Shown: one piece after another, positions 1,445 through 49,214 of the stretch
How positions within the stretch are numbered: the stretch's first letter is position 1
Layout: each line of letters begins with the position of its first letter
Source: Tubulanus polymorphus
Lineage: Eukaryota; Nemertea; Palaeonemertea; Tubulaniformes; Tubulanidae
Direction of reading: 5' to 3'
DNA: 62,000 bases
Assembly: GCF_964204645.1 (NCBI RefSeq)
Contig: NC_134026.1
Coordinates: 31,295,150-31,357,149, forward strand
Position numbers and translations under genes: made by a program
Notes under the pieces: generated by a model
Seen by the model: only the letters and a program-made list of their open reading frames with translations
Databases searched by the model: none
Told to the model about the DNA's origin: nothing

Positions 1445-2865
1445 ACGCGTTCGCAATAATCTTTTTTGTGCGTGTCATGAATTTGATTATCATCCTGTAG
1501 CTGATTCTCTAAGTAAACGTATTGTAAATATCAGACCAGAAATTCGTCTCTTAAAGAAAACAAATCAGTATCGTTCTAAAGTCAGACATTTACTTTAAAA
1601 AAAACCTGAGCGAAATATCCGCAAAATAATAAGCTACCTAAGGGTGCAGTTTTAAAAGTTAGAAAACAATCTTGTGGTTTTATTGCTATTGGTTACACGT
1701 ACTTTATTATGAAGACAATAATTCAAATTAAACCGTTTTTAAACTGAAACTTTTTATCCTGAAATCGAACTGTGACTCATGAAATATAAACTACGAACAA
1801 CAATCGATAAGATTTGTTACTTACCGCCGGTACAAATAATTATTTATTTGCAGTTTTAGCCTTTGGTTCATTTTTGTCCGTGAAACGTTTGACATTTCCG
1901 GAACAAAATGTCTTTTCTCGAGTTTTCCCGTTCAAATAAACAAAAATCATTATCGAAATACTAGTGACCTTTATGATTCGACCTATAGGCTGTTATAGGC
2001 TGTTACGTAAGATCTGAATATAACTAATATTATCGTTGAATCTATGACTAAAAACAATATCTGTTTATACTCCGTTCTTAATCAATATTGACACTTATAC
2101 TTTTAAACTCAACGTTGCTATATAAATGTCACAGTTACGTTAGATATATCACGTATATTGACATTGTTGTAGACTAATAACAGTCTGGTACGTAAGCTTG
2201 TTAAGGGCCCTTCAAATAGTACACACTCGTCCATGGGGATAGAAGGGGGGGGGGGGGGTTAGGGGGAAAATTGACCACTTCTCCCATATTTACGTAATGC
2301 TTGAGGGCTTCAATCAAAAATCCATCCTACCTCCGAATAGAGTAACTTTCAGTAATGTGAAAATTGTTATGATTTTTATGATTAGCCTTTTTCATAATAC
2401 GATATTTTTTCTCGTCCCTGCTGATGATATCTTCGTAGAGTATTTATTTCAAATGTCACCCGCTGTGACACAATCAAAACAAAGCTCAATTTTCTATTTA
2501 TAACAATCAATGACGTTCGTTTCTTTGGAAACAAATCGTTTTAAATTCATATATTTAAAGATTGTTGTTTTCGAGGGAAATGTCGTCGCATTACGAATTT
2601 CTATTTGTTTCAAATTGTGACTGTATGACATATTGGGATATACGCAGAACTGATCGACCGGTAATCCCAGGGTCTCTTTCAGACATCATACATATCAAAT
2701 ATCCTTTTAAATAGCACTTTTAGTAGAAATTTCGCAGCATTTTCCTGATATTCCATGTATTGCATAAATCAATTGATAAATCTTAAGAAATGAAAGGTTA
2801 TAGACGTTTACTCTACTATAGTAAAAATATCGGGATCTAAAACTCATTTTAGTTCTATAACCAAT
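1445..2865. other. No gene seen; AT-rich sequence with a G14 run
   Basis: The stretch is AT-rich. A pure run of 14 G lies at 2245-2258. On the minus strand a GTAAGT donor-like site sits near 1821, but no clear open exon with a matching acceptor precedes it. Nothing else is recognisable. Confidence 0.5.
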
Positions 2866-3128
2866 ATAACAACTTAAGACCAGTTTTAAGATCATTTTTG
2901 GTCTTTAACCAATCTAAGAAATTAAGACAAGTTTAAGCTCATTTTGGTTCTAATAGTCAATACAACAACTTTAAGACGAGTCTAAGCTCATTTGGTTTTA
3001 TAACCAATCTAACAACTGAAAACCAGTCTAAGTTCATCTTAGTTCTATAACCAATCTAACAACTTAAGACTAGTTTCAAGTCCATTAATTTGGTCTTCAA
3101 TGAGTCACGCCTGTACAACCAACCCCTG
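2866..3128. repeat. MITE-derived 47-bp satellite, degenerate
   Basis: About five diverged copies of the 47-bp unit (core TAACCAATCTAACAACTTAA, then GACCAGTCTAAGCTCATTTT) lead into a terminal segment, GAGTCACGCCTGTACAACC, that matches the end of the MITE family described at 60595-60743. The left terminus is not recognisable. Confidence 0.8.
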
Positions 3129-4176: not shown

Positions 4177-4640
4177 GATCCGTTACATAGTCATGGCTTA
4201 GTTTTAAGACCAGTCCAAGACAATTGTAGTTCCATAGCCAATCTAACAACTTAAGACAAGTTTAAGCTCATGTTGGTTCTATAACCAATCTAGCAACTTA
4301 AGACCAGTCTAAACTCATTTTGGTTCTATAACCAATCTAACAACTTAAGACCAGTCATTTTGGTTTTATAACCAATCTAACAACTTAAGACCAGTCTAAG
4401 CCCATTTTGGTTCTATAGCCAATCTAACAACTTAAGACCAGTCTAAGCCCATTTTGCTTCTATAACCAATCTAACAACTTAAGACCAGTCTAAACTCATT
4501 TTGGTTTTATAACCAATCTAACAACTTAAGACCAGTCTAAACTCATTTTGGTTTTATAACCAATCTAACAACTTAAGACCAGTCTTATGTTTTAAAACCA
4601 CTTTTGGACTTGATTCACGACTGCGCAATTGGGCCCTGGT
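4177..4640. mobile_element. MITE with 47-bp interior expanded about 7-8 times
   Basis: The left end (CCGTTACATAGTCATGGCTT) and the right end (reverse complement CCAATTGCGCAGTCGTGAAT) are inverted copies of the family terminus. Between them lie seven to eight head-to-tail 47-bp units (for example starts at 4441 and 4488). Compared with the 149-bp copy at 60595, this is the same element with its interior amplified. It has no coding capacity. Confidence 0.85.
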
Positions 4641-4919: not shown

Positions 4920-4985
4920 GACGAGAGAAATGCCACAATAACGAAGCCAAGATTGAAAAATTCTATATCAGAATGATTGTATTTG

Positions 4986-5030
4986 AGGAGCGACGTTTCG
5001 GCTAACAACTGTTAGCCATCATCAGGAGTA
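4986..5030 (-). ncRNA. Hammerhead-ribozyme-like motif with canonical core
   Basis: On the minus strand the order is CTGATGA (5019-5025), one unpaired T, GGCTAAC, loop AGTT, GTTAGCC, then GAAACGTC (4992-4999). This gives a perfect 7-bp stem II between the invariant core boxes CTGANGA and GAA, and ACGT could act as the minimal self-complementary stem III of the small hammerheads known from Penelope-like elements, with cleavage expected after the final C. Only one base pair of stem I is visible, so this copy may be inactive. Its hairpin plan and extra T match the 69-bp satellite. Confidence 0.5.
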
Positions 5031-5168
5031 CTGCCCACAGAAACTCGCTAAAGAGACTAATAGCTTGCTGCATAAACTCAACATAACTCATTCCATAAAC
5101 TCAAATTCGCTCATTATGAGAATTACCCTTTTTTGAAATTACATAGGTCTGTTAGTTCGGGAAACGTA

Positions 5169-6110: not shown

Positions 6111-6689
6111 GGTAGTATGTATGTAAAGGACGCCTAGCCAAATCCTAACTACACGCCTATAGCCAGCAAAATAGAAAAAAATATAGAAACATTTTACCGC
6201 GTGAATAAATAAACAAACGGCTTAAAACTAACAAAGGTCCGAAATCTAAAGGGCCGCCATCTGAGCTATACACAGACTGGGAGCTTTTATAAAAACCACT
6301 TTCTATAGAAACTGTTTAAGATATTGCTATCCACATCTTCACACATTGAAACACATTAATTCTGACGTCGTCATTCGTTCAAAAGGTCACATAGCCTGCA
6401 GAAAAGTTGCCTCTAATAAAGTCATCGGTCCATCATTACTCATTCGCTTCATGGGTCTCATGTGTTTGACACAGAGTTTTTAATAAACCAGTGTTTAGCG
6501 CAGCAGAGCAGTAGAGTAATTATACTGACAGATAGTAACTACCTCTCCGAGTCACAAAGACAATGTACTTTCTCATAATCCCTGTGAACTATAAGAAATA
6601 AAAAATACAGTACGAAATGTTTTCTACTTGAGCTAGTTTTCATTTCAACGCCCTTAGACTGTCTAACTAAAGTATTCCTCAATATGGCT
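6111..6689. other. No gene seen; faint minus-strand repeat remnant
   Basis: A degenerate minus-strand copy of the dispersed element that carries the 69-bp unit is recognisable around 6545-6650 (GTACGAAATGTTTTC, TTGAGCTAGTTTTCAT). Otherwise there is nothing recognisable. Confidence 0.4.
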
Positions 6690-6838
6690 TATTACTAGTT
6701 CAAGGAAACATCGTTATTATTAAGCGTTGGATTTTATATTATCTTTACAACACGGAATCAGCGTGTTGTTTCATCAATGGTTATAATGAGGACAACATCA
6801 GTATTACTGAAGATGTTTCGACTATATCCTATCATAGA
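6690..6838 (+). mobile_element. Leader of the dispersed 69/158-bp element
   Basis: It contains CTAGTTCAAGGAAACATCG, GGATTTTATATTATC, TTTACAACACGGAATCAGCG, GTTTCATCAATGGTTATAAT and GAGGACAACATCAGTATT, the sequence that lies between ribozyme-like cores in the long (158-bp) unit. It runs directly into the 69-bp array. The same leader and junction recur at 46300-46420. Confidence 0.8.
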
Positions 6839-7592
6839 CCTGTATTCCTGAAGATGACTATTAGGATATAGTGGAAACGTTGAATAAACTACACTAGCTC
6901 AAGGAATACAGTATTCCTGAAGATGACTATTAGGATATAGTCGAAACGTTGAATAAACTACACTAGCTCAAGGAATACAGTATTCCTGAAGATGACTATT
7001 AGGATATAGTCGAATCGTTGAATACACTACACTAGCTCCAGGAATACAGTATTCCTGAAGATGACTATTAGGATAAAGTCGAAACGTTGAATAAACTACA
7101 CTAGCTCAAGGAATACAGTATTCCTGAAGATGACTATTAGGATATAGTCGAAACGTTGAATAAACTACACTAGCTCACTGAATACAGTATTCCTGAAGAT
7201 GACTATTAGGATAAAGTCGAAACGTTGAATAAACTACACTAGCTCAAGGAATACAGTATTCCTGAAGATCACTATTAGGATATAGTCGAAACGTTGAATA
7301 AACTACACTAGCTCAAGGAATACAGTATTCCTGAAGATGACTATCAGAATAAAGTCGAAACGTTGAATAAACTACACTAGCTCAAGGAATACAGTATTCC
7401 TGAAGATGACTATTAGGATAAAGTCGAAACGTTGAATAAACTACACTAGCTCAAGGAATACAGTATTCCTGAAGATGACTATTAGGATAAAGTCGAAACG
7501 TTGAATAAACTACACTAGCTCAAGGAATACAGTATTCCTGAAGATGACTATTAGGATATAGTCGAAACGTTGAATAAACTACACTAGCTCCA
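6839..7592 (+). repeat. 69-bp satellite array 1, 11 copies
   Basis: GAAACG recurs every 69 bp from 6874 to 7564. The unit runs CCTGAAGATGACTATTAGGA, TATAGTCGAAACGTTGAATA, AACTACACTAGCTCAAGGAA, TACAGTATT. Variants alternate ATATAGTC and ATAAAGTC; the copy at 7012 has GAATCG instead of GAAACG and the first copy has GTGGAAAC. Each monomer holds the hammerhead-like fold annotated at 6912-6955. Confidence 0.97.
6912..6955 (+). ncRNA. Hammerhead-like fold in a 69-bp monomer (representative)
   Basis: Reading 5' to 3': stem I TATTC (6912-6916); core CTGAAGA (6917-6923, matching the consensus CTGANGA); one extra T (6924); stem II GACTAT (6925-6930), loop TAGGAT, ATAGTC (6937-6942); GAA (6943-6945); self-complementary ACGT (6946-6949); T6950, the expected cleavage position (NUH rule, GUU); stem I' GAATA (6951-6955), pairing perfectly with 6912-6916. 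The four-base stem III implies action as a dimer or in a tandem transcript. The unpaired T before stem II is non-canonical. The fold is seen in the sequence; activity is inferred. Confidence 0.5.
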
Positions 7593-8249
7593 AGAAACGC
7601 GCGCTCATCAGTGTTTTCAGCCATTATTTTTTTCTCAGAGACAAAGTCACTATCCACACCTCCCGTTATTACCTCTCTACAATTTAAATACCCGTTTTTT
7701 GTTCATATTCATTTCGATTTTAATTCGCCTGATAAATAGCACAATATTTCTCCTAATAGACTTAAACGAATGACATTTTGAAATCATAGTTTTATCGAAT
7801 GAACATCTATATTGTGTACTGGCTATTTCTATACGGACCAGTTATCAATGTGAAATATATATAACCCGACATTGTTTACATGCAATAAACAAAATTATCA
7901 AAATAATGACAATTTGAAAATAGTTTTTTGACTCCGGTAAAAATATGGCAATTAGCATTGCGCTTACCTTATATCAGTATCAGTAACAGGGGACGGATAG
8001 AGTAGTATCCATAACACTCTCCACGATCACTCGGCTATACACGTATCTAAATTCTCAATTGACAATTGACAATTGCGAAATAATCCATAATTAAAACTTT
8101 GCGACTTTGTATGAACGTCGACGCGATATGAAACAAATAAACCAGTAACATCAAGAAGACATCAATGGATTGACGAGAAGGTTTATAAATGTTTGATACT
8201 CTGCGCGTACAGTTGCGTCTAGCTAGTCGAGTTGACTCAACGACTACTG

Positions 8250-11300: not shown

Positions 11301-11721
11301 AAAACTAAGAGAGTAGTGTATATAGTGACCTTTCGACTCAATGAGCCATTTTCAAAACTAAGAAAGTAATGACGTTTAGACTCAATTCTATGAGCCATTT
11401 TCAAAACTAAGAGAGTAGTAATGACGTTTAGACTCGATTCTATGAGACATTTTCAAAAACTAAGAGAGTAGTGACGTTTAGACTCAATTCTATGAGACAT
11501 TTTCAAAACTAAGACAGTAGTGACGTTTAGACTCAATTCTCTAAGCCATTTTCAAAACTAAGAGAGTAGTTATGACGTTTAGACTCAATTCTAGGAGCCA
11601 TTTTCAAAACTAAGAGAGTAGTGACATTTAGACTTGAGAACATAGAATTGAGTCTTAATGTCACTACTCTCTTAGTTTTGAAAATGTCTTATACAGAATT
11701 GATTCTAAACGTCACTATCTT
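11301..11721. repeat. 50-bp satellite with an inverted last copy
   Basis: Seven direct units (AACTAAGAGAGTAGTGACGT, TTAGACTCAATTCTATGAGC, CATTTTCAAA) are followed at about 11640-11721 by an inverted copy, making a large palindrome. Read on the minus strand the unit is TTGAAAATGGCTCATAGAAT then TGAGTCTAAACGTC, which has the layout of the 69-bp ribozyme-like unit: an AT spacer, a 6-bp stem (GGCTCA/TGAGTC with one G-T pair), a 6-nt loop TAGAAT, then xAAACGTC. The first copy (11325-11350) still reads GAGTCGAAAGG. Core positions needed for catalysis are changed in most copies. Confidence 0.85.
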
Positions 11722-12450
11722 CATGATTATTGGTATTTTTCTTTAATCTTTATAGTGATTGGATAGAATGAAATTGGTCGGCTGCTTGGTTTGCTCCGAT
11801 TTTAGAGATTCGCGTGGATGTGAGGAGAGACCACTGGTGGTAACTCTGAAAATGTTTTTCTTGCACGAGTATAAGAAACCTTGCACATCCATGAATAAGA
11901 AAGGATATTAGATGTTTCCAATTTCCCTTAATCACGAACTGCGCGAATTGAAAACTCGACAAGACACTACATCATATCGGTCTACGGAAACCGACCGAGG
12001 TTGATAGCATTCAGTTCGGTAGCATCATTCTGACCTGAAGTCAAGGCGCAAAATTCTGTTTTTATAACCGACCTAAACAAACATAATCAGCAGATTGGAA
12101 AAACAGTCGCAACTTCAATTATTGACTTAGGAAAAGTGATATATTCAAACGCCGGGACCACGTTCGCGTCTTATACTGGAGAAGTTTCATGTCGTGTTCG
12201 ACTGAGCAAATCGTTCGTCACAGTCGCCTAAAGCGAAATAGGACACAAAGAAGCTTACTTTGTTCGCGCCAGTCAGCAGCACACAACTCGAGACGAGCAG
12301 ACGAGAGCACCAGTAAAAATATAGAAAAGAACGTTCCACACACAAAGCAGAGATTATACTCGGGTATAAGCAGATCAGGGGAGGATACCATAGAATCTTC
12401 GTAGCATCATGACTAGCAGCTTGTACCTCATAACCGCATAGCATCCACCC
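11722..12450. other. No gene seen; weak minus-strand exon signal
   Basis: On the minus strand an open stretch of about 85 codons (12444-12187) contains a GTAAGC donor-like site after CGCGAACAAA (near 12255), but no good acceptor precedes it. Not called as an exon. Confidence 0.3.
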
Positions 12451-15192
12451 TCAGTCAATCCACCCTCCATCTCTCCAGTCCTCAGTTAATCCAACCTCCA
12501 TCTCTCCAGTCCTCAGTCAATCCACCCTCCATCTCTCCAGTCCTCAGTTAATCCACCCTCCATCTCTCCAGTCCTCAGTCAATCCACCCTCTACCTCTCC
12601 AGTCCTCAGTCAATCCACCCTCCATCTCTCCAGTCCTCAGTCAATCCACCCTCTACCTGCCAATCCTCAGTCAATCCACCCTCTACCTCTCCAGTCCTCA
12701 GTCAATCCACCCTCTACCTCTCCAGTCCTCAGTCAATCCGCCCTCCATCTCTCCAGTCCTTAGTCAATCCACCCTCCACCTCTCCAGTCCTCAGTCAATC
12801 CAACCTCCATCTCTCCAGTCCTCAGTCAATCCACCCTCTACCTCTCCAGTCCTCAGTCAATCCAACCTCCATCTCTCCAGTCCTCAGTCAATCCACCCTC
12901 TACCTCTCCAGTCCTCAGTCAATCCACCCTCCATCTCTCCAGTCCTCAGTCAATCCACCCTCCACCTCTCCAGTCCTCAGTCAATCCACCCTCTACCTCT
13001 CCAGTCCTCAGTCAATCCACCCTCTACCTCTCCAGTCCTCAGTCATCCCCCTCCACCTCTCCAGTCCTCAGTCAATCCACCCTCTACCTCTCCAGTCCTC
13101 AGTCAATCCGCCCTCCACCTCTCCAGTCCTCAGTCAATCCACCCTCTACCTCTCCAGTCCTCAGTCAATCCGCCCTCTACCTCTCCAGTCCTCAGTCAAT
13201 CCGCCCTCCACCTCTCCAGTCCTCAGTCAATCCACCCTCTACCTCTCCAGTCCTCAGTCAATCCACCCTCTACCTCTCCAATCCTCAGTCAATCCACCCT
13301 CTACCTCTCCAGTCCTCAGTCAATCCACCCTCTACCTCTCCAGTCCTCAGTCAATCCGCCCTCCACCTCTCCAGTCCTCAGTCAATCCACCCTCTACCTC
13401 TCCAGTCCTCAGTCAATCCACCCTCTACCTCTCCAATCCTCAGTCAATCCACCCTCTACCTCTCCAGTCCTCAGTCAATCCACCCTCTACCTCTCCAGTC
13501 CTCAGTCAATCCGCCCTCCACCTCTCCAGTCCTCAGTCAATCCACCCTCTACCTCTCCAGTCCTCAGTCATCCCCCCTCCACCTGCCAGTCCTCAGTCAA
13601 TCCGCCCTCCATCTCTCCAGTCCTCAGTCAATCCGCCCTCCATCTCTCCAGTCCTCAGTCAATCCACCCTCCATCTCTCCAGTCCTCAGTCAATCCGCCC
13701 TCCATCTCTCCAATCCTCAGTCAATCCACCCTCCATCTCTCCAGTCCTCAGTTAATCCAACCTCCATCTCTCCAGTCCTCAGTCAATCCACCCTCTACCT
13801 CTCCAGTCCTCAGTCAATCCACCCTCCATCTCTCCAGTCCTCAGTCAATCCACCCTCCACCTCTCCAGTCCTCAGTCAATCCGCCCTCCATCTCTCCAGT
13901 CCTTAGTCAATCCACCCTCTACCTCTCCAGTCCTCAGTCAATCCGCCCTCCATCTCTCCAGTCCTCAGTCAATCCACCCTCTACCTCTCCAGTCCTCAGT
14001 CAATCCGCCCTCCATCTCTCCAGTCCTTAGTCAATCCACCCTCCACCTCTCCAGTCCTCAGTCAATCCACCCTCTACCTCTCCAGTCCTCAGTCAATCCG
14101 CCCTCCATCTCTCCAGTCCTCAGTCAATCCAACCTCCATCTCTCCAGTCCTCAGTCAATCCACCCTCCACCTCTCCAGTCCTCAGTCAATCCACCCTCTA
14201 CCTCTCCAGTCCTCAGTCAATCCACCCTCCATCTCTCCAGTCCTCAGTCAATCCACCCTCCACCTCTCCAGTCCTCAGTCAATCCACCCTCTACCTCTCC
14301 AGTCCTCAGTCAATCCACCCTCTACCTCTCCAGTCCTCAGTCAATCCGCCCTCCATCTCTCCAGTCCTCAGTCAATCCACCCTCCATCTCTCCAGTCCTC
14401 AGTCAATCCACCCTCTACCTCTCCAGTCCTCAGTCAATCCGCCCTCTACCTCTCCAGTCCTCAGTCAATCCACCCTCCATCTCTCCAGTCCTCAGTCAAT
14501 CCACCCTCTACCTCTCCAGTCCTCAGTCAATCCACCCTCCACCTCTCCAGTCCTCAGTCAATCCACCCTCCATCTCTCCAGTCCTCAGTCAATCCACCCT
14601 CTACCTCTCCAGTCCTCAGTCAATCCGCCCTCCATCTCTCCAGTCCTCAGTCAATCCACCCTCCATCTCTCCAGTCCTCAGTCAATCCACCCTCTACCTC
14701 TCCAGTCCTCAGTCAATCCACCCTCCATCTCTCCCGTCCTCAGTCAATCCACCCTCTACCTCTCCAGTCCTCAGTCAATCCACCCTCCACCTCTCCAGTC
14801 CTCAGTCAATCCACCCTCTACCTCTCCAGTCCTCAGTCAATCCGCCCTCTACCTCTCCAGTCCTCAGTCAATCCACACTCCATCTCTCCAGTCCTCAGTC
14901 AATCCACCCTCTACCTCTCCAGTCCTCAGTCAATCCGCCCTCCATCTCTCCAGTCCTCAGTCAATCCGCCCTCCATCTCTCCAGTCCTCAGTCAATCCAC
15001 CCTCCATCTCTCCAGTCCTCAGTCAATCCGCCCTCCATCTCTCCAATCCTCAGTCAATCCACCCTCCATCTCTCCAATCCTCAGTCAATCCACCCTCCAT
15101 CTCTCCAATCCTCAGTCAATCCACCCTCTACCTGCCAGTCCTCAGTCAATCCACCCTCTACCTCTCCAGTCCTCAGTCAATCCACCCTCCTC
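12451..15192 (+). repeat. 31-bp minisatellite, 2.74 kb, about 88 copies
   Basis: The consensus unit is TCCTCAGTCAATCCACCCTC then TACCTCTCCAG. Variation concentrates at three places: CCACC/CCGCC/CAACC, CTCTACC/CTCCATC/CTCCACC, and rare CAGTTAATC or CCAATCC. A few units are shortened (AGTCATCCCC near 13042 and 13568; ACCTGCCAG). Blocks of identical variant order recur (for example around 13200-13560), suggesting amplification of multi-unit segments. Stops occur in every frame, so it is non-coding. Confidence 0.98.
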
Positions 15193-18582: not shown

Positions 18583-18880
18583 TATACCTAACTTAAGACC
18601 AGTTTAAGCTTATCTTAGTTGTATAATCAATCTAACAACTTAATACCAGTCTAAACTCATTTTGGTTCTATAACCAATCTAACAACTTAAGACCAGTTAA
18701 GCTCATTTGGTTCTATAACTAACCTAACAACTTAAGACCAGTCTCAGCTCATTTTGGTTCTATAGCCAATCTAACAACTTAAGACCAGTCTAAGCTCATT
18801 TTGATTCAATAACCAATCTACCACTACTTTAGACTAGTCTAAACTCATTTTAGTTCTAGAACCAATCTAACGTTAAGAAG
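18583..18880 (+). repeat. MITE-derived 47-bp satellite, about 6 copies
   Basis: Same 47-bp unit as at 4177-4640 (AACTTAAGACCAGTCTAAGC ... CTATAACCAATCTAAC), with deletions in some copies. Intact MITE ends are not visible on either side. Confidence 0.85.
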
Positions 18881-24539: not shown

Positions 24540-24615
24540 CATTGAAAAAAATAAAAACAGTCCGAAATGTTTCCTCGAGCTAGTAGTTTATTCATGGTTT
24601 CGACTTTATCCTTAA
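24480..24615 (-). mobile_element. Solo minus-strand copy of the 158-bp element
   Basis: Reverse complement shows GGATAAAGTCGAAACCATGA, ATAAACTACTAGCTCGAGGA, AACATTTCGGACTG, a T/A-rich segment, then an ACGGACTCGGATTG-type block. It preserves the right half of the ribozyme-like core but the left half is degraded. Confidence 0.7.
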
Positions 24616-24669
24616 AAGTCGACTTTAAATGGTTAAAATATGACAGCATTTTGTTTCAGTATCGACTGC

Positions 24670-30290: not shown

Positions 30291-30525
30291 GGATAAACAC
30301 GACTGGGTCAAGGAAACATTTCGTACTCAATGTCTATTCTTAACGTTGGATCTTGTATCATCTTTTACAACACGGACTCAGAGTCAGTTTTATCGATGTT
30401 TTTGATAAGAAGTAGAAAAAAAGATTAACAAATCATAATTCTGATGAAACACTAGAATTCCTGAAGATGGTTATTGTAGTCGAAATGTAGAATCTGGTAC
30501 TAGCTCCAAGGAAAGATTTCAGACC
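30280..30525 (+). mobile_element. Solo copy of the 158-bp element with degenerate core
   Basis: GGTCAAGGAAACATTTCG, GTTGGATCTTGTATCATC, TTTTACAACACGGACTCAGA, then GAATTCCTGAAGATGGTTAT, TGTAGTCGAAATGTAGAATC and AGCTCCAAGGAAAGATTTCA. CTGAAGA is intact but GAAAC has become GAAAT and stem II is weakened. Confidence 0.75.
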
Positions 30526-34309: not shown

Positions 34310-34499
34310 TGGTATTTTTCAACGTTTCGACTATATCCTAATAGTTATCTTCAGGAATACTGTATTCCTTGAGCTAGTGTAGTTTATTCTACGTTGCGAC
34401 TTTATTCTAATAGTCATCTTCAGGAATACTGTATTCAGTGAGCTAGTGTAGTTTATTCTACGTTGCGACTTTATTCTAATAGTCATCTTCAGAAAAGGT
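34310..34499 (-). repeat. 69-bp satellite, inverted part of array 2 (three copies)
   Basis: Three units in reverse orientation (AACGTTTCGACTATATCC at 34320; ACGTTGCGACTTTATTC at about 34393 and 34462; ATCTTCAGGAATACTG). Two of the three have GTTGCGAC, so their minus-strand core reads GTCGCAAC instead of GTCGAAAC. Confidence 0.95.
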
Positions 34500-35165
34500 A
34501 TTCTTGGTTAAGTATATAGTTGAAACGTCGAATAAACTACACTAGCTCAAGGAATACAGTATTCCTGAAGATGACTATTAGGATATAGTCGAAACGTTGA
34601 ATAAACTACACTAGCTCCAGGAATACAGTATTCCTGAAGATGACTATTAGGATATAGTCGAAACGTTGAATAAACTACACTAGCTCAAGGAATACAGTAT
34701 TCCTGAAGATGACTATTAGGATATAGTCGAAACGTTGAATAAACTACACTAGCTCAAGGAATACAGTATTCCTGAAGATGACTATTAGGATAAAGTCGAA
34801 ACGTTGAATAAACTACACTAGCTCAAGGAATACAGTATTCCTGAAGATGACTATTAGGATATAGTCGAAACATTGAATAAACTACACTAGCTCAAGGAAT
34901 ACAGTATTCCTGAAGATGACTATTAGGATAAAGTCGAAACGTTGAATAAACTACACTAGCTCAAGGAATACAGTATTCCTGAAGATGACTATTAGGATAT
35001 AGTGGAAACGTTGAATAAACTACACTAGCTCAAGGAATACAGTATTCCTGAAGATGACTATTAGGATATAGTCGAAACGTTGAATAAACTACACTAGCTC
35101 AAGGAATACAGTATTCCTGAAGATGACTATTAGGATATAGTGGAAACGTTGAATAAACCACTAGT
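34500..35165 (+). repeat. 69-bp satellite, direct part of array 2 (ten copies)
   Basis: GAAACG recurs every 69 bp: 34522, 34591, 34660, 34729, 34798, 34867 (GAAACA), 34936, 35005, 35074, 35143. The first copy is fused to the inverted block through AAAAGGTATTCTTGGTTAAG. Stem II variants ATATAGTC, ATAAAGTC and ATATAGTG occur. Confidence 0.97.
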
Positions 35166-35370
35166 TCAAGCAAACATTTAAAACTCTTTTCATTCATAGC
35201 TCGGAATTTTTTATGAAAAAAAAACCTCTATCCTGAAGATGAAGTCGAAACGTCTCGTAACAACACAGGAAATATTTCGGGCATTTTATTATATTGAGTG
35301 CACTGGGATTTTATATCGTCATGAACTACACGGACTCAGAGAGTGTTTCATCAATGGTTTTCTATTCGCC
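35160..35370 (+). mobile_element. Right-hand element sequence after array 2
   Basis: CCACTAGTTCAAGCAAACAT, TTTCATTCATAGCTCGG, then CCTGAAGATGAAGTCGAAAC GTC with the stem-loop deleted (about 35234-35257), then GGGATTTTATATCGTCATGA and CACGGACTCAGAGAGTGTTT. Two leader blocks are therefore present in tandem. Confidence 0.75.
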
Positions 35371-45565: not shown

Positions 45566-46260
45566 CCATGGTGGGATGCATATGTTATGGTAATGACCAG
45601 CCAGGACCCTCACCCTCAAAGGTTTAACTCAAGTCTTTGTTTAAATTGCTATTGGTTTAAATTCAATGAGTTCTAGGCCTGGGCGGGCCCAACAATGTTA
45701 ATTTGAAACTGACAGTCCGAGTCCATGTAGTAGTAACAATAGTTTAAGCTTCAAACGGTTTCACCTGATGAAGCTTCCACTATTAGTAAAAATAAATCTA
45801 GTTAAATCTTCAATATAGCCGTAGATACGAGTTGTAGGTATTCATCAGATACTCGTTTCACGTTTTGTAGAGATGATTGATATGATTGTCACTGTGTATC
45901 TCACTAAGTGTCTATGAGTTATACTAACTGTATAGACAGTATGTCAGATGTCACTGGTCGGGTCTCTAAAAGCAGGAAAGGAAGTAGATTCCAGCAAGGA
46001 AGTACTTAAGTCTCTGCCTGCTATTATCGGCTGCTATGTTGATTATTGTGAGTCTTGTCTTTCCATGGTTTGTTCCTTAGATCGTGATAGCGATGTTAAA
46101 TCACCGGTTTGTCGCAGTCGTCGCCGTGTGTAGACTTAACCTTCTCAGTTCATTAAAAACCTGACTGCGCTTTTTACAACTCGGGCAGAAACAGCTAATA
46201 GTAGTAGGAAAATCCCAAGTAAAATTCCAGTAAAATTACGGTAAAATCCCAAATCTTCAC
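45566..46260. other. No gene seen
   Basis: Open stretch 45948-46133 (plus) has no splice support or recognised domain. Confidence 0.35.
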
Positions 46261-47034
46261 TATTCCTGAAAATGTCTATTAGAAAATAGTTGAAACGTTG
46301 AATAAACTACACTAGCTCCAGGAAACTCTTTTTATTCTAAGTGTGCAGGGATTTCATATTGTTTTTACAACACGGACTCAGAGTGTTTCATTAATGGTTA
46401 TAATGAGGACAACATCAGTATTCCTGAAGATGACTATTAGGATAAAGTCGAAACGTTGAATAAACTACACTAGCTCAAGGAATACAGTATTCCTGAAGAT
46501 GACTATTAGAATAAAGTCGTAACGTTGAATAAACTACACTAGCTCAAGGAATACAGTATTCCTGAAGATGACTACTAGGATATAGTCGAAACGTTGAATA
46601 AACTACACTAGCTCAAGGAATACAGTATTCCTGAAGATGACATTAGGATGAAGTCGAAACGTTGAATAAACTACACTAGCTCAAGGAATACAGTATTCCT
46701 GAAGATGACTACTAGGATATAGTCGAAACGTTGAATAAACTACACTAGCTCAAGGAATACAGTATTCCTGAAGATGACTATTAGGACAAAGTCGAAACGT
46801 TGAATAAACTACACTAGCTCAAGGAATACAGTATTCCTGAAGATGACTATTAGGATAAAGTCGAAACGTTGAATAAACTACACTAGCTCAAGGAATACAG
46901 TATTCCTGAAGATGACTATTAGGATAAAGTCGAAACGTTGAATAAACTACACTAGCTCAAGGAATACAGTATTCCTGAAGATGACTATTAGGATAAAGTC
47001 GAAACGTTGAATAAACTACACTAACTCAAGAAAC
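46261..47034 (+). repeat. 69-bp satellite array 3: one 158-bp unit then nine 69-bp units
   Basis: GAAACG-type cores lie at 46292, then 158 bp later at 46450, then about every 69 bp to 47001. The long unit contains the leader (AGGGATTTCATATTGTTTTT, ACAACACGGACTCAGAGTGT, TTCATTAATGGTTATAATGA, GGACAACATC) absent from the short units. The 46519 copy has GTAACG and the 46656 copy lacks one base. The array ends CTAACTCAAGAAACGTTTCA. Confidence 0.97.
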
Positions 47035-47779: not shown

Positions 47780-48005
47780 TCAGAAATATTGTTTCCTTGA
47801 GCTAATGGTTTATTAAAAGTATGGACTTAATCATAAATGTCATCTTCAGGAATATTTAGGAATTGTTTACTCCAAATCAAGTCTCTTGGTATAAAATCCC
47901 ACTCCTAAGAATGAAAAAGAAAGTCCGAAGTGTTTCCTTGAGCTAAAAGTTTTTTGTGGCCTTTCGACCTTATCCTGATAGTCACGTTCAGGTCGCAGTT
48001 CCACT
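47780..48005 (-). mobile_element. Two degenerate minus-strand copies of the 158-bp element
   Basis: TTTCCTTGAGCTAATGGTTT, ATTAAAAGTATGGACTTAAT, GTCATCTTCAGGAATATT, then GTCCGAAGTGTTTCCTTGAG, GTGGCCTTTCGACCTTATCC and TGATAGTCACGTTCAGG. The second copy keeps GTCGAAAGG with CTGAACG, a broken core. Confidence 0.75.
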
Positions 48006-48762: not shown

Positions 48763-49214
48763 TTGGCCACAGTCGAGACTTTAGACCAAAAGTGGTCTTA
48801 AATCTGAAGACTGTTACATCTCTTTAGAACCAAAATGAGTTTAGACTGGTCTTCAGTTGTGAGATTTGTTAACGAACTAAGATGGTCTTAGACTGGTCTT
48901 AAGTTGTTAGATTGGCTATAGAACCAAAATGAGCTTGGACTGGTCTTAAGTTGTTAGATTGGCTATAGAACCAAAATGAGCTTAGACTGGTCTTAAGTTG
49001 TTAGATTGGCTATAGAACCAAAATGAGCTTAGACTGGTCTTAAGTTGTAGGATTGGTTATAGAACCAAAATGAGCTTGGACTGGTCTTAAGTTGTAGGAT
49101 TGGCTATAGAACCAAAATGAGTTTAGACTGGTCTTAAGTTGTTAGATTTGTTAACGAACTAAGATGGTCTTGGACTGGTCTCGAATCTAAGTCGCTCTGA
49201 CTGTGGAACTAGCC
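48763..49214 (-). mobile_element. MITE with expanded 47-bp interior, reverse orientation
   Basis: Ends GTTGGCCACAGTCGAGACTT and (reverse complement) GGCTAGTTCCACAGTCAGAG enclose about seven units of CTTAAGTTGTTAGATTGGCT, ATAGAACCAAAATGAGCTTA, GACTGGT. Same structure as 4177-4640 on the opposite strand. Confidence 0.85.

Follow-up and report, generated by a model that had tools for sequence, protein, structure and literature searches.

Tubulanus polymorphus carries a short tandem satellite that reads like a chain of hammerhead ribozymes, which raises the question of whether this architecture is real, where it came from and whether the arrays live by it. The window analysed here is a stretch of 62,000 nucleotides (C2:31,295,150-31,357,149) on the contig C2, which has 31,900,244 bases in a genome of 267.8 Mb and 77 contigs; it lies 0.54-0.61 Mb from the end of C2. 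Tandem Repeats Finder (TRF) delimited a satellite array at 6842-7590, with a period of 69, 10.9 copies and 96% matches, and together with blastn it located the 69-bp satellite at three places of the window (arrays A, B and C), besides isolated degenerate copies and fragments. All unit counts given for the window refer to the 32 units delimited in these three arrays. The features are as follows; the descriptor and the covariance model R1 are described further below.

4984-5033, minus strand: relic of a different hammerhead of similar type, CTGATGA-T-GGCTAAC...GTTAGCC-GAAACGTC (sequence; one of the four training sequences of R1)
6668-6841, plus strand: degenerate longer unit, with a hammerhead remnant and a downstream pseudo-LTR-like part, ahead of array A (blastn)
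6842-7596, plus strand: array A, 11 head-to-tail 69-bp units, the last incomplete (TRF; R1 match in 11/11 units)
6912-6955, plus strand: typical complete hammerhead (sequence; descriptor; R1 49.8 bits, E 1.3e-11 for 6909-6958)
24571-24620, minus strand: single degenerate unit (blastn; absent from the R1 list to E 10)
30335-30513, plus strand: pseudo-LTR-like downstream fragment (30335-30409), then a degenerate single hammerhead unit (30454-30513) (blastn; R1 E 0.04)
34315-34495, minus strand: minus part of array B, about 2.5 inverted units (TRF, blastn)
34511-35173, plus strand: plus part of array B, a partial unit and 9 further units (TRF, blastn)
46258-46415, plus strand: longer single unit of 158 bp, with the hammerhead region and a downstream pseudo-LTR-like part, abutting array C (blastn; R1 E 3.3e-7)
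46416-47033, plus strand: array C, nine copies of the satellite unit, one measuring 68 bp (TRF)
47780-47992, minus strand: two degenerate tandem units with a spacing of roughly 140-150 bp (blastn; neither in the R1 list to E 10)

The surroundings of the arrays are also related to one another. Positions 6694-6815 of the degenerate longer unit match 46311-46432, a short inverted hammerhead piece lies at 6815-6831 (minus strand) ahead of array A, and pseudo-LTR-like sequence follows the plus part of array B, where 35267-35367 matches other flanks (all by blastn). The relic at 4984-5033 retains an intact stem II of 7 bp and has largely lost stem I. The window is rich in minisatellites in general, with 103 TRF rows (for example 88.6 copies of 31 bp at 12449-15190), and a 47-bp satellite (AACTTAAGACCAGTCTAAGCTCATTTTGGTTCTATAACCAATCTAAC and its complement) occurs at 2843-3074, 4204-4585, 18590-18871 and 48825-49181.

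The layout of the typical monomer at 6912-6955 agrees in order and letters with what a sequence-only reading had described. Stem I, which has 5 bp next to the core, is formed by TATTC (6912-6916) and GAATA (6951-6955); the core CTGAAGA (6917-6923) is followed by an unpaired T (6924), stem II by GACTAT (6925-6930) and ATAGTC (6937-6942), then GAA (6943-6945), the stem III tetramer ACGT (ACGU in RNA, 6946-6949) and T6950 as H17. The order C3 U4 G5 A6 N7 G8 A9 / G12 A13 A14 / A15.1-U16.1 / H17 is thus complete, and cleavage is predicted after U6950.

Hammerheads of Penelope-like elements (PLEs) were reportedly described by Cervera and de la Pena in 2014 and by Lunse, Weinberg and Breaker in 2017, and the connection to such elements that had been suggested for this array is borne out in the same genome. 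The exact 35-mer CCTGAAGATGACTATTAGGATAWAGTCGAAACGTT has 1,274 genome matches (653+621; 0 for the reversed control), and some of its neighbouring copies are 2857-2863 bp apart. In the loci L059 and L060 the copies lie 2857-2858 bp apart on both sides of a stop-free ORF of 833 aa, for which RVT_1 (6.3e-10) and GIY-YIG (1.6e-5) domains were detected in L060; the flanking 35-mer and the two domains identify a Penelope-like element. In L060 the motif starts at 1480 and the stop-to-stop frame at 1520, that is, the motif start is 40 nt ahead. Typical window units share 53 bp with this PLE at 98% identity, so that the satellite has sequence in common with the flanks of an ORF for reverse transcriptase (RT) and GIY-YIG endonuclease. 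The flanks of the window arrays (TTTCGGAC...ACAACACGG), as judged by eye, resemble the pseudo-LTR of this PLE; beyond the shared hammerhead region, the L059/L060 PLE differs further downstream. At E 0.01 the PLE protein did not match anywhere in the window, and no open-frame PLE with the exact downstream sequence of the 167-bp unit described below was found with the one exact 33-mer searched (3 places).

LJHE01000041.1, a contig of an Epulopiscium single-cell assembly, also carries an RT/GIY-YIG ORF of 765 aa in two copies, together with two hammerheads (L016 and L017). The ORF on this contig reached 29.2 bits for RVT_1, against a Pfam cut-off of 29.6, and was above the cut-off for GIY-YIG. 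The contig is probably animal DNA contaminating a bacterial record.

To describe the architecture we used a descriptor that demands a stem I of at least 4 bp, CTGANGA, 0-1 nt, a stem II of at least 3 bp, GAA, a self-complementary ANNT and H17. It has 22 matches in the window, all of them array units, whereas 100 first-order Markov sequences of 62 kb yielded none. The claim that every monomer is a hammerhead was too broad, since the complete motif is present in only 22 of the 32 window units and in 8 of the 11 units of array A, where three units fail, those at 6848 (C11.1->G), 6986 (A15.1->T) and 7262 (G10.1->C); in five of the eight units that pass, A at position 22 breaks one stem II pair. 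The covariance model R1 was built from an alignment (A1) of four hammerheads other than the 69-mer (L017, L037, L105 and window 4984-5033). It matches all 32 window units, 31 of them at E <= 4.3e-7, and its best other candidate has E 0.016; one training sequence comes from the window itself, and shared sequence supplies much of the score. A second alignment (A2) contains eight hammerheads, namely L017 (beside a PLE ORF on the contaminant contig), L037, L105, window 4984-5033, two PLE copies of the 2.86-kb family, L041 (a further copy) and one 69-mer; L037, L105 and 4984-5033 bear the PLE label from the motif alone. In A2, 91.3% of the cells are paired, a share that drops to 20-38% for slid structures, and both partners have changed in 7 of the 10 stem I and II pairs. 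Covariation scored 0.536, compared with a mean of 0.189 after shuffling, where the relatedness of the rows keeps the shuffle count from being a probability. Stems I and II thus have covariation support among eight related hammerheads of the PLE type.

These results make it hardly credible that a hairpin-forming satellite resembles a hammerhead by chance. The one observation in favour of such a resemblance is that the Rfam scan yielded no hammerhead in the window at the gathering score, nor in 6700-7700 up to E 10. However, the L017 hammerhead, which lies beside a PLE ORF, also remains below the threshold (Hammerhead_HH9, 16.7 bits where 52 are required), so that we do not count the Rfam result as contrary evidence: the Rfam models are insensitive to this minimal form. 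The covariance search that had been proposed as a check therefore failed with Rfam and succeeded with R1, which was built from other hammerheads of the type. The descriptor counts, the covarying stems and the position of the motif directly ahead of PLE ORFs, as reported for the Anolis PLE hammerhead (PMC11167929, in part), all speak against coincidence. The hammerhead architecture of the satellite, as first read from the letters, is real and beyond chance, and on sequence comparison we regard the 69-mer as a descendant of PLE hammerheads, in their minimal form with a dimer-type stem III.

A separate satellite of 49-52-bp units (TGAAAATGGCTCATAGAATTGAGTCTAAACGTC, with GTCGAAAGGTC in the last unit) was observed at 11341-11634 on the minus-strand reading, with R1 values of E 0.016 to 4.1 at four places. 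It is possibly a second, decayed hammerhead-derived array.

The single unpaired T before stem II had been suspected of reducing or abolishing activity. This suspicion is weakened, as one nucleotide (U or A) stands between A9 and stem II in every PLE-type hammerhead found in our analysis, and also in viral hammerheads with complete stems. Together with stems I and III, the extra nucleotide is present in 9 motifs from 8 loci (7 viral contigs and 1 bacterial), two of which (L002 and L003) are identical. Among the 28 loci picked by pattern, 7 of the 8 viral contigs and one bacterial contig show stems I and III with an extra U, and the other 20 are without such stems; the search pattern demanded the extra nucleotide, so that these counts indicate tolerance and not frequency. 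The loci whose hammerheads combine CUGAUGA-U-stem II with stems I and III are L001-L004 and L006-L008 (IMG/VR contigs) and L011, and the gathering-threshold Rfam scan of these loci detected no hammerhead except for a type II match elsewhere on L001. Their hammerheads are like the 69-mer in the nucleotide between A9 and the 10.1-11.1 pair; they have a full stem III, whereas that of the 69-mer is a dimer-forming tetramer. A viroid hammerhead with one extra core nucleotide was reportedly described by De la Pena and Flores in 2001, and we take its position to be the A9/10.1-11.1 position that corresponds to the extra T here. For a core insertion elsewhere, after A6, low activity has been reported (PMC3088659). 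Matches of the pattern on prokaryote contigs were obtained at 20 loci, 17 of which lack both full stems and a dimer-type motif and probably arose by chance; L011 has full stems, and L016 and L017 have the dimer-type motif beside PLE ORFs.

How the short unit arose is suggested by an array on another contig. At C8:236 kb (L098), successive units are spaced 69, 167, 167, 167, 69 and 167 bp. The 167-bp unit, the counterpart with which the 158-bp unit at 46258-46415 was compared, consists of the hammerhead and further pseudo-LTR-like sequence, and its net difference in length from the 69-bp unit is 98 bp; from this mixed array the 69-mer looks like a deletion derivative. Another array (L100) has 24 units of 67 bp.

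An exact pattern search for the 69-bp junction found 881 places in the genome (437+444), and a 34-mer of the unit has 729 occurrences. The listing of the 34-mer is complete for C1-C5, where all 22 clusters (10-kb merging) lie within 2.5 Mb of contig ends, a zone that makes up 17% of the sequence; merged at 1 Mb, 8 of 8 clusters do so. The 2.5-Mb limit was chosen post hoc, neighbouring clusters are non-independent, and the ends of contigs are assumed to be those of chromosomes. The 35-mer on C1 marks mostly PLE copies, among those read, and is scattered, with 9 of 35 clusters near ends where 5.5 are expected. One two-unit junction with a spacing of 67 bp is interior, at C2:7.17 Mb. The end of C1 (32,062,800-32,063,560; L118) contains a tandem satellite with CTCCTGAAGATGATGGACTCGATCTGAAATG, reminiscent of a hammerhead core, which has no R1 match to E 1.

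To evaluate constraint on the ribozyme we sampled 127 ungapped units from fetched loci on C1, C2, C3 and C8, a part of the 881 junctions, and dropped 14 whose junction part was unmatched (e.g. last units and 167-mers). Among the remaining 113 units the complete motif is present in 79, and the 11 fixed core positions are intact in 94. The number of substitutions per site was 0.0233 in the core and 0.0145 outside core and stems; stem II, with the T/A polymorphism at position 22 excluded, had 0.0241, and stem I had a low value of 0.0044, but part of this stem belonged to the unit filter. As many as 74% of random sets of 11 positions had as few or fewer changes than the core, and no double change in stem II was found among the 113 array units. 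A variant with a changed core (A14->C) occurs 12 times in exact form in the genome, including a run of four at C2:30.949 Mb, and another unit variant has only two genome copies, in the window arrays A and B, which suggests local exchange. Substitutions distributed without regard to core or stem positions had been named in advance as a result that would count against the ribozyme. In the sampled units the changes are distributed in this way, which argues against selection for ribozyme function, and there is no sign that the arrays are kept for ribozyme activity. The core rates, the amplified A14->C variant and the variant restricted to arrays A and B fit DNA-level turnover of an inherited motif.

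The folding of dimers was predicted with ViennaRNA. For the 69-mer dimer, the minimum fold (-33.4 kcal/mol) pairs GTATTCCT with AGGAATAC, a pairing made by the 69-bp junction. The double-hammerhead fold has -16.9, which is 16.5 kcal/mol above the minimum, and a single hammerhead with stems I and II has -30.6, only 2.8 kcal/mol above it. For the 167-bp dimer the minimum is -63.9, the double hammerhead -52.1 and the single hammerhead -60.8. In the natural two-unit stretch 6912-7049, the minimum fold contains both stem II hairpins and no stem I (-30.6, z -2.5). From these energies the dimer form is predicted to be unfavourable, more so for the 69-mer, and the single-hammerhead fold to be within reach. 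Cotranscriptional folding or a PLE protein could change this outcome, by analogy with the Anolis PLE hammerhead, for which cleavage is reported only with PLE protein added (PMC11167929, in part).

Taken together, the evidence makes it probable, in our judgement, that the arrays are a subtelomeric satellite that derives from a PLE, was amplified as DNA and has inherited a hammerhead, which may be weakly active. The satellite would be a piece of a PLE pseudo-LTR that contains the minimal type I hammerhead of the element. A pseudo-LTR unit of about 167 bp would have become tandem and lost a net 98 bp, and the resulting 69-bp unit would have multiplied and passed between subtelomeres mostly as DNA, by unequal exchange or local duplication, so that every unit inherits the hammerhead. 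In a transcript that contains two or more units, a shared stem III may form between two copies of the self-complementary ACGU, and the GAAUA of each unit may pair with the UAUUC of the other, which would allow a residual, probably weak, cleavage after U6950-type positions in dimers. The data themselves show sequence in common with the pseudo-LTRs of open-frame PLEs, the covarying architecture, the position near the ends of C1-C5 and one array of mixed 167- and 69-bp units. That the PLE gave rise to the satellite, and the 167-bp unit to the 69-bp one, is an inference, and amplification at the DNA level is suggested by the pattern of the copies. Some of the data could also be read differently: dispersed arrays with an identical junction on several contigs could result from retrotransposition of concatemers, and recent homogenisation could hide selection, given the low overall divergence.

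A more active role for the ribozyme is the main competitor. The arrays could belong to an active miniature retrozyme, in which self-cleavage of dimers releases 69-nt (or 167-nt) RNAs that are circularised by tRNA ligase, reverse-transcribed by a PLE and inserted as new tandem copies. We consider this unlikely, and a narrower version, in which the arrays are miniature retrozyme-like replicons whose dimers are cleaved into 69-nt circles and reverse-transcribed by a resident PLE, quite improbable. The same genome does contain PLEs with open RT and GIY-YIG frames, and PLEs were proposed as mobilisers of animal retrozymes on the basis of co-occurrence (PMC7229834 and PMC7761336, both in part). The 167-bp tandem unit is near the size of animal retrozyme RNAs, about 170-400 nt (PMC7229834, in part). 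Furthermore, the complete motif in 79 of the 113 sampled units is compatible with function, and a single-hammerhead fold merely 2.8 kcal/mol over the minimum is compatible with activity. Nevertheless, the sampled units show no sign of selection on the core, and units with a changed core were amplified. The 34-mer clusters on C1-C5 are all near contig ends, whereas those of the 35-mer on C1 are scattered; for the 69-mer dimer, the double hammerhead lies far above the predicted minimum; and no target-site duplication was apparent by eye around array C or L098, the two arrays looked at. For the Anolis PLE, RNA-seq detected no reads in vivo that start or stop at its hammerhead site (PMC11167929, in part). 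If the replicon reading were nevertheless true, these would be miniature replicons smaller than any unit size quoted in the papers cited here, and they would directly show how an autonomous PLE produces a non-autonomous hammerhead element able to spread through subtelomeres. We give very little credence to a further account in which some other function at subtelomeres, for example as a spacer, a heterochromatin seed or a processed RNA, maintains the arrays, with the hammerhead irrelevant or cutting subtelomeric transcripts. This account draws on the subtelomeric placement on C1-C5 and on PLE arrays at contig ends of the same genome, but the substitution pattern looks neutral, and subtelomeric exchange alone can give such a placement. 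A PLE-derived satellite that spreads as DNA therefore remains our preferred reading.

The PLE arrays at contig ends belong to a second family of these elements, with open frames of about 830 aa that contain RT and match through the GIY-YIG region. We observed it mainly near contig ends, at C10:5-36 kb, C4:4-71 kb, C8:10-13 kb and C7 near 21.56 Mb, on the small contigs C30, C34, C54, C63, C65 and C66 and in the loci L129-L131, as well as at single interior places (C2:16.49, C3:16.17 and C1:12.15 Mb and others). The copies form head-to-tail runs on C4 and C10, and are on the plus strand at contig starts and on the minus strand at the C7 end. C10 begins with CCCTAA repeats, and L130 has a short CCCTAA stretch at about 130-141 and its own hammerhead motif at 970. 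The hammerhead of this family, TGACA-CTGACGA-A-GGC...GCC-GAA-ATAT-C-TGTCA (R1 E 0.0043, confirmed by the descriptor), has a shorter stem II and was left out of the pair counts. Its stem III tetramer, ATAT, is different yet self-complementary, which fits a stem III shared between two hammerheads and bears out the minimal, dimer-type stem III first proposed for the ACGT of the 69-mer. Judged by its sequence, the second family looks like a telomere-associated PLE that has retained its endonuclease. Like Terminons, it places PLE hammerheads at chromosome ends, has telomeric repeats and occurs in head-to-tail arrays, but the RT ORF of Terminons and other telomere-associated PLEs is described as lacking the endonuclease, whereas the frame of the second family matches through the GIY-YIG region (PMC6431247, in part). 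The 69-bp satellite is unlike a Terminon, since its unit has neither an ORF nor a telomeric repeat.

Among the known systems close to the satellite are the minimal type I PLE hammerheads (PMC11167929 and PMC7761336, both in part), with which it shares the pseudo-LTR position beside an ORF, the minimal stem III expected to act in dimers, the core CUGANGA...GAAA and tandem PLE copies; it is unlike them in that the region here is a free-standing 69-bp tandem satellite. Animal (non-LTR) retrozymes are also short tandem repeats with a type I hammerhead, with repeats of 150-450 bp and RNAs of about 170-400 nt (Cervera and de la Pena 2020, PMC7229834, in part). The 167-bp tandem units, found in one array (L098), are just below the RNA range, whereas the window arrays, at 69 bp, are shorter than both ranges and have the minimal dimer form of stem III. 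The satellites of newts, schistosomes and cave crickets likewise carry a hammerhead in satellite DNA, and that of the newt is reported to cleave in dimeric form and to have units of a few hundred bp (PMC6155905 and PMC8490949, both in part). The nemertean satellite differs from them in its subtelomeric placement and in the open-frame PLE of the same genome with which it shares sequence, and its unit is shorter than that of the newt. In the titles and abstracts surveyed from the open-licence literature we found no description of a PLE-hammerhead satellite of such size or place.

These data also bear on how such families are detected, as motif searches that forbid an extra nucleotide between A9 and stem II will miss them. 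Within one genome, an identical 35-nt hammerhead occurs next to open frames of PLEs and in tandem units of both 167 and 69 bp, which makes the path from an autonomous element to a hammerhead satellite traceable here and open to testing at the bench.
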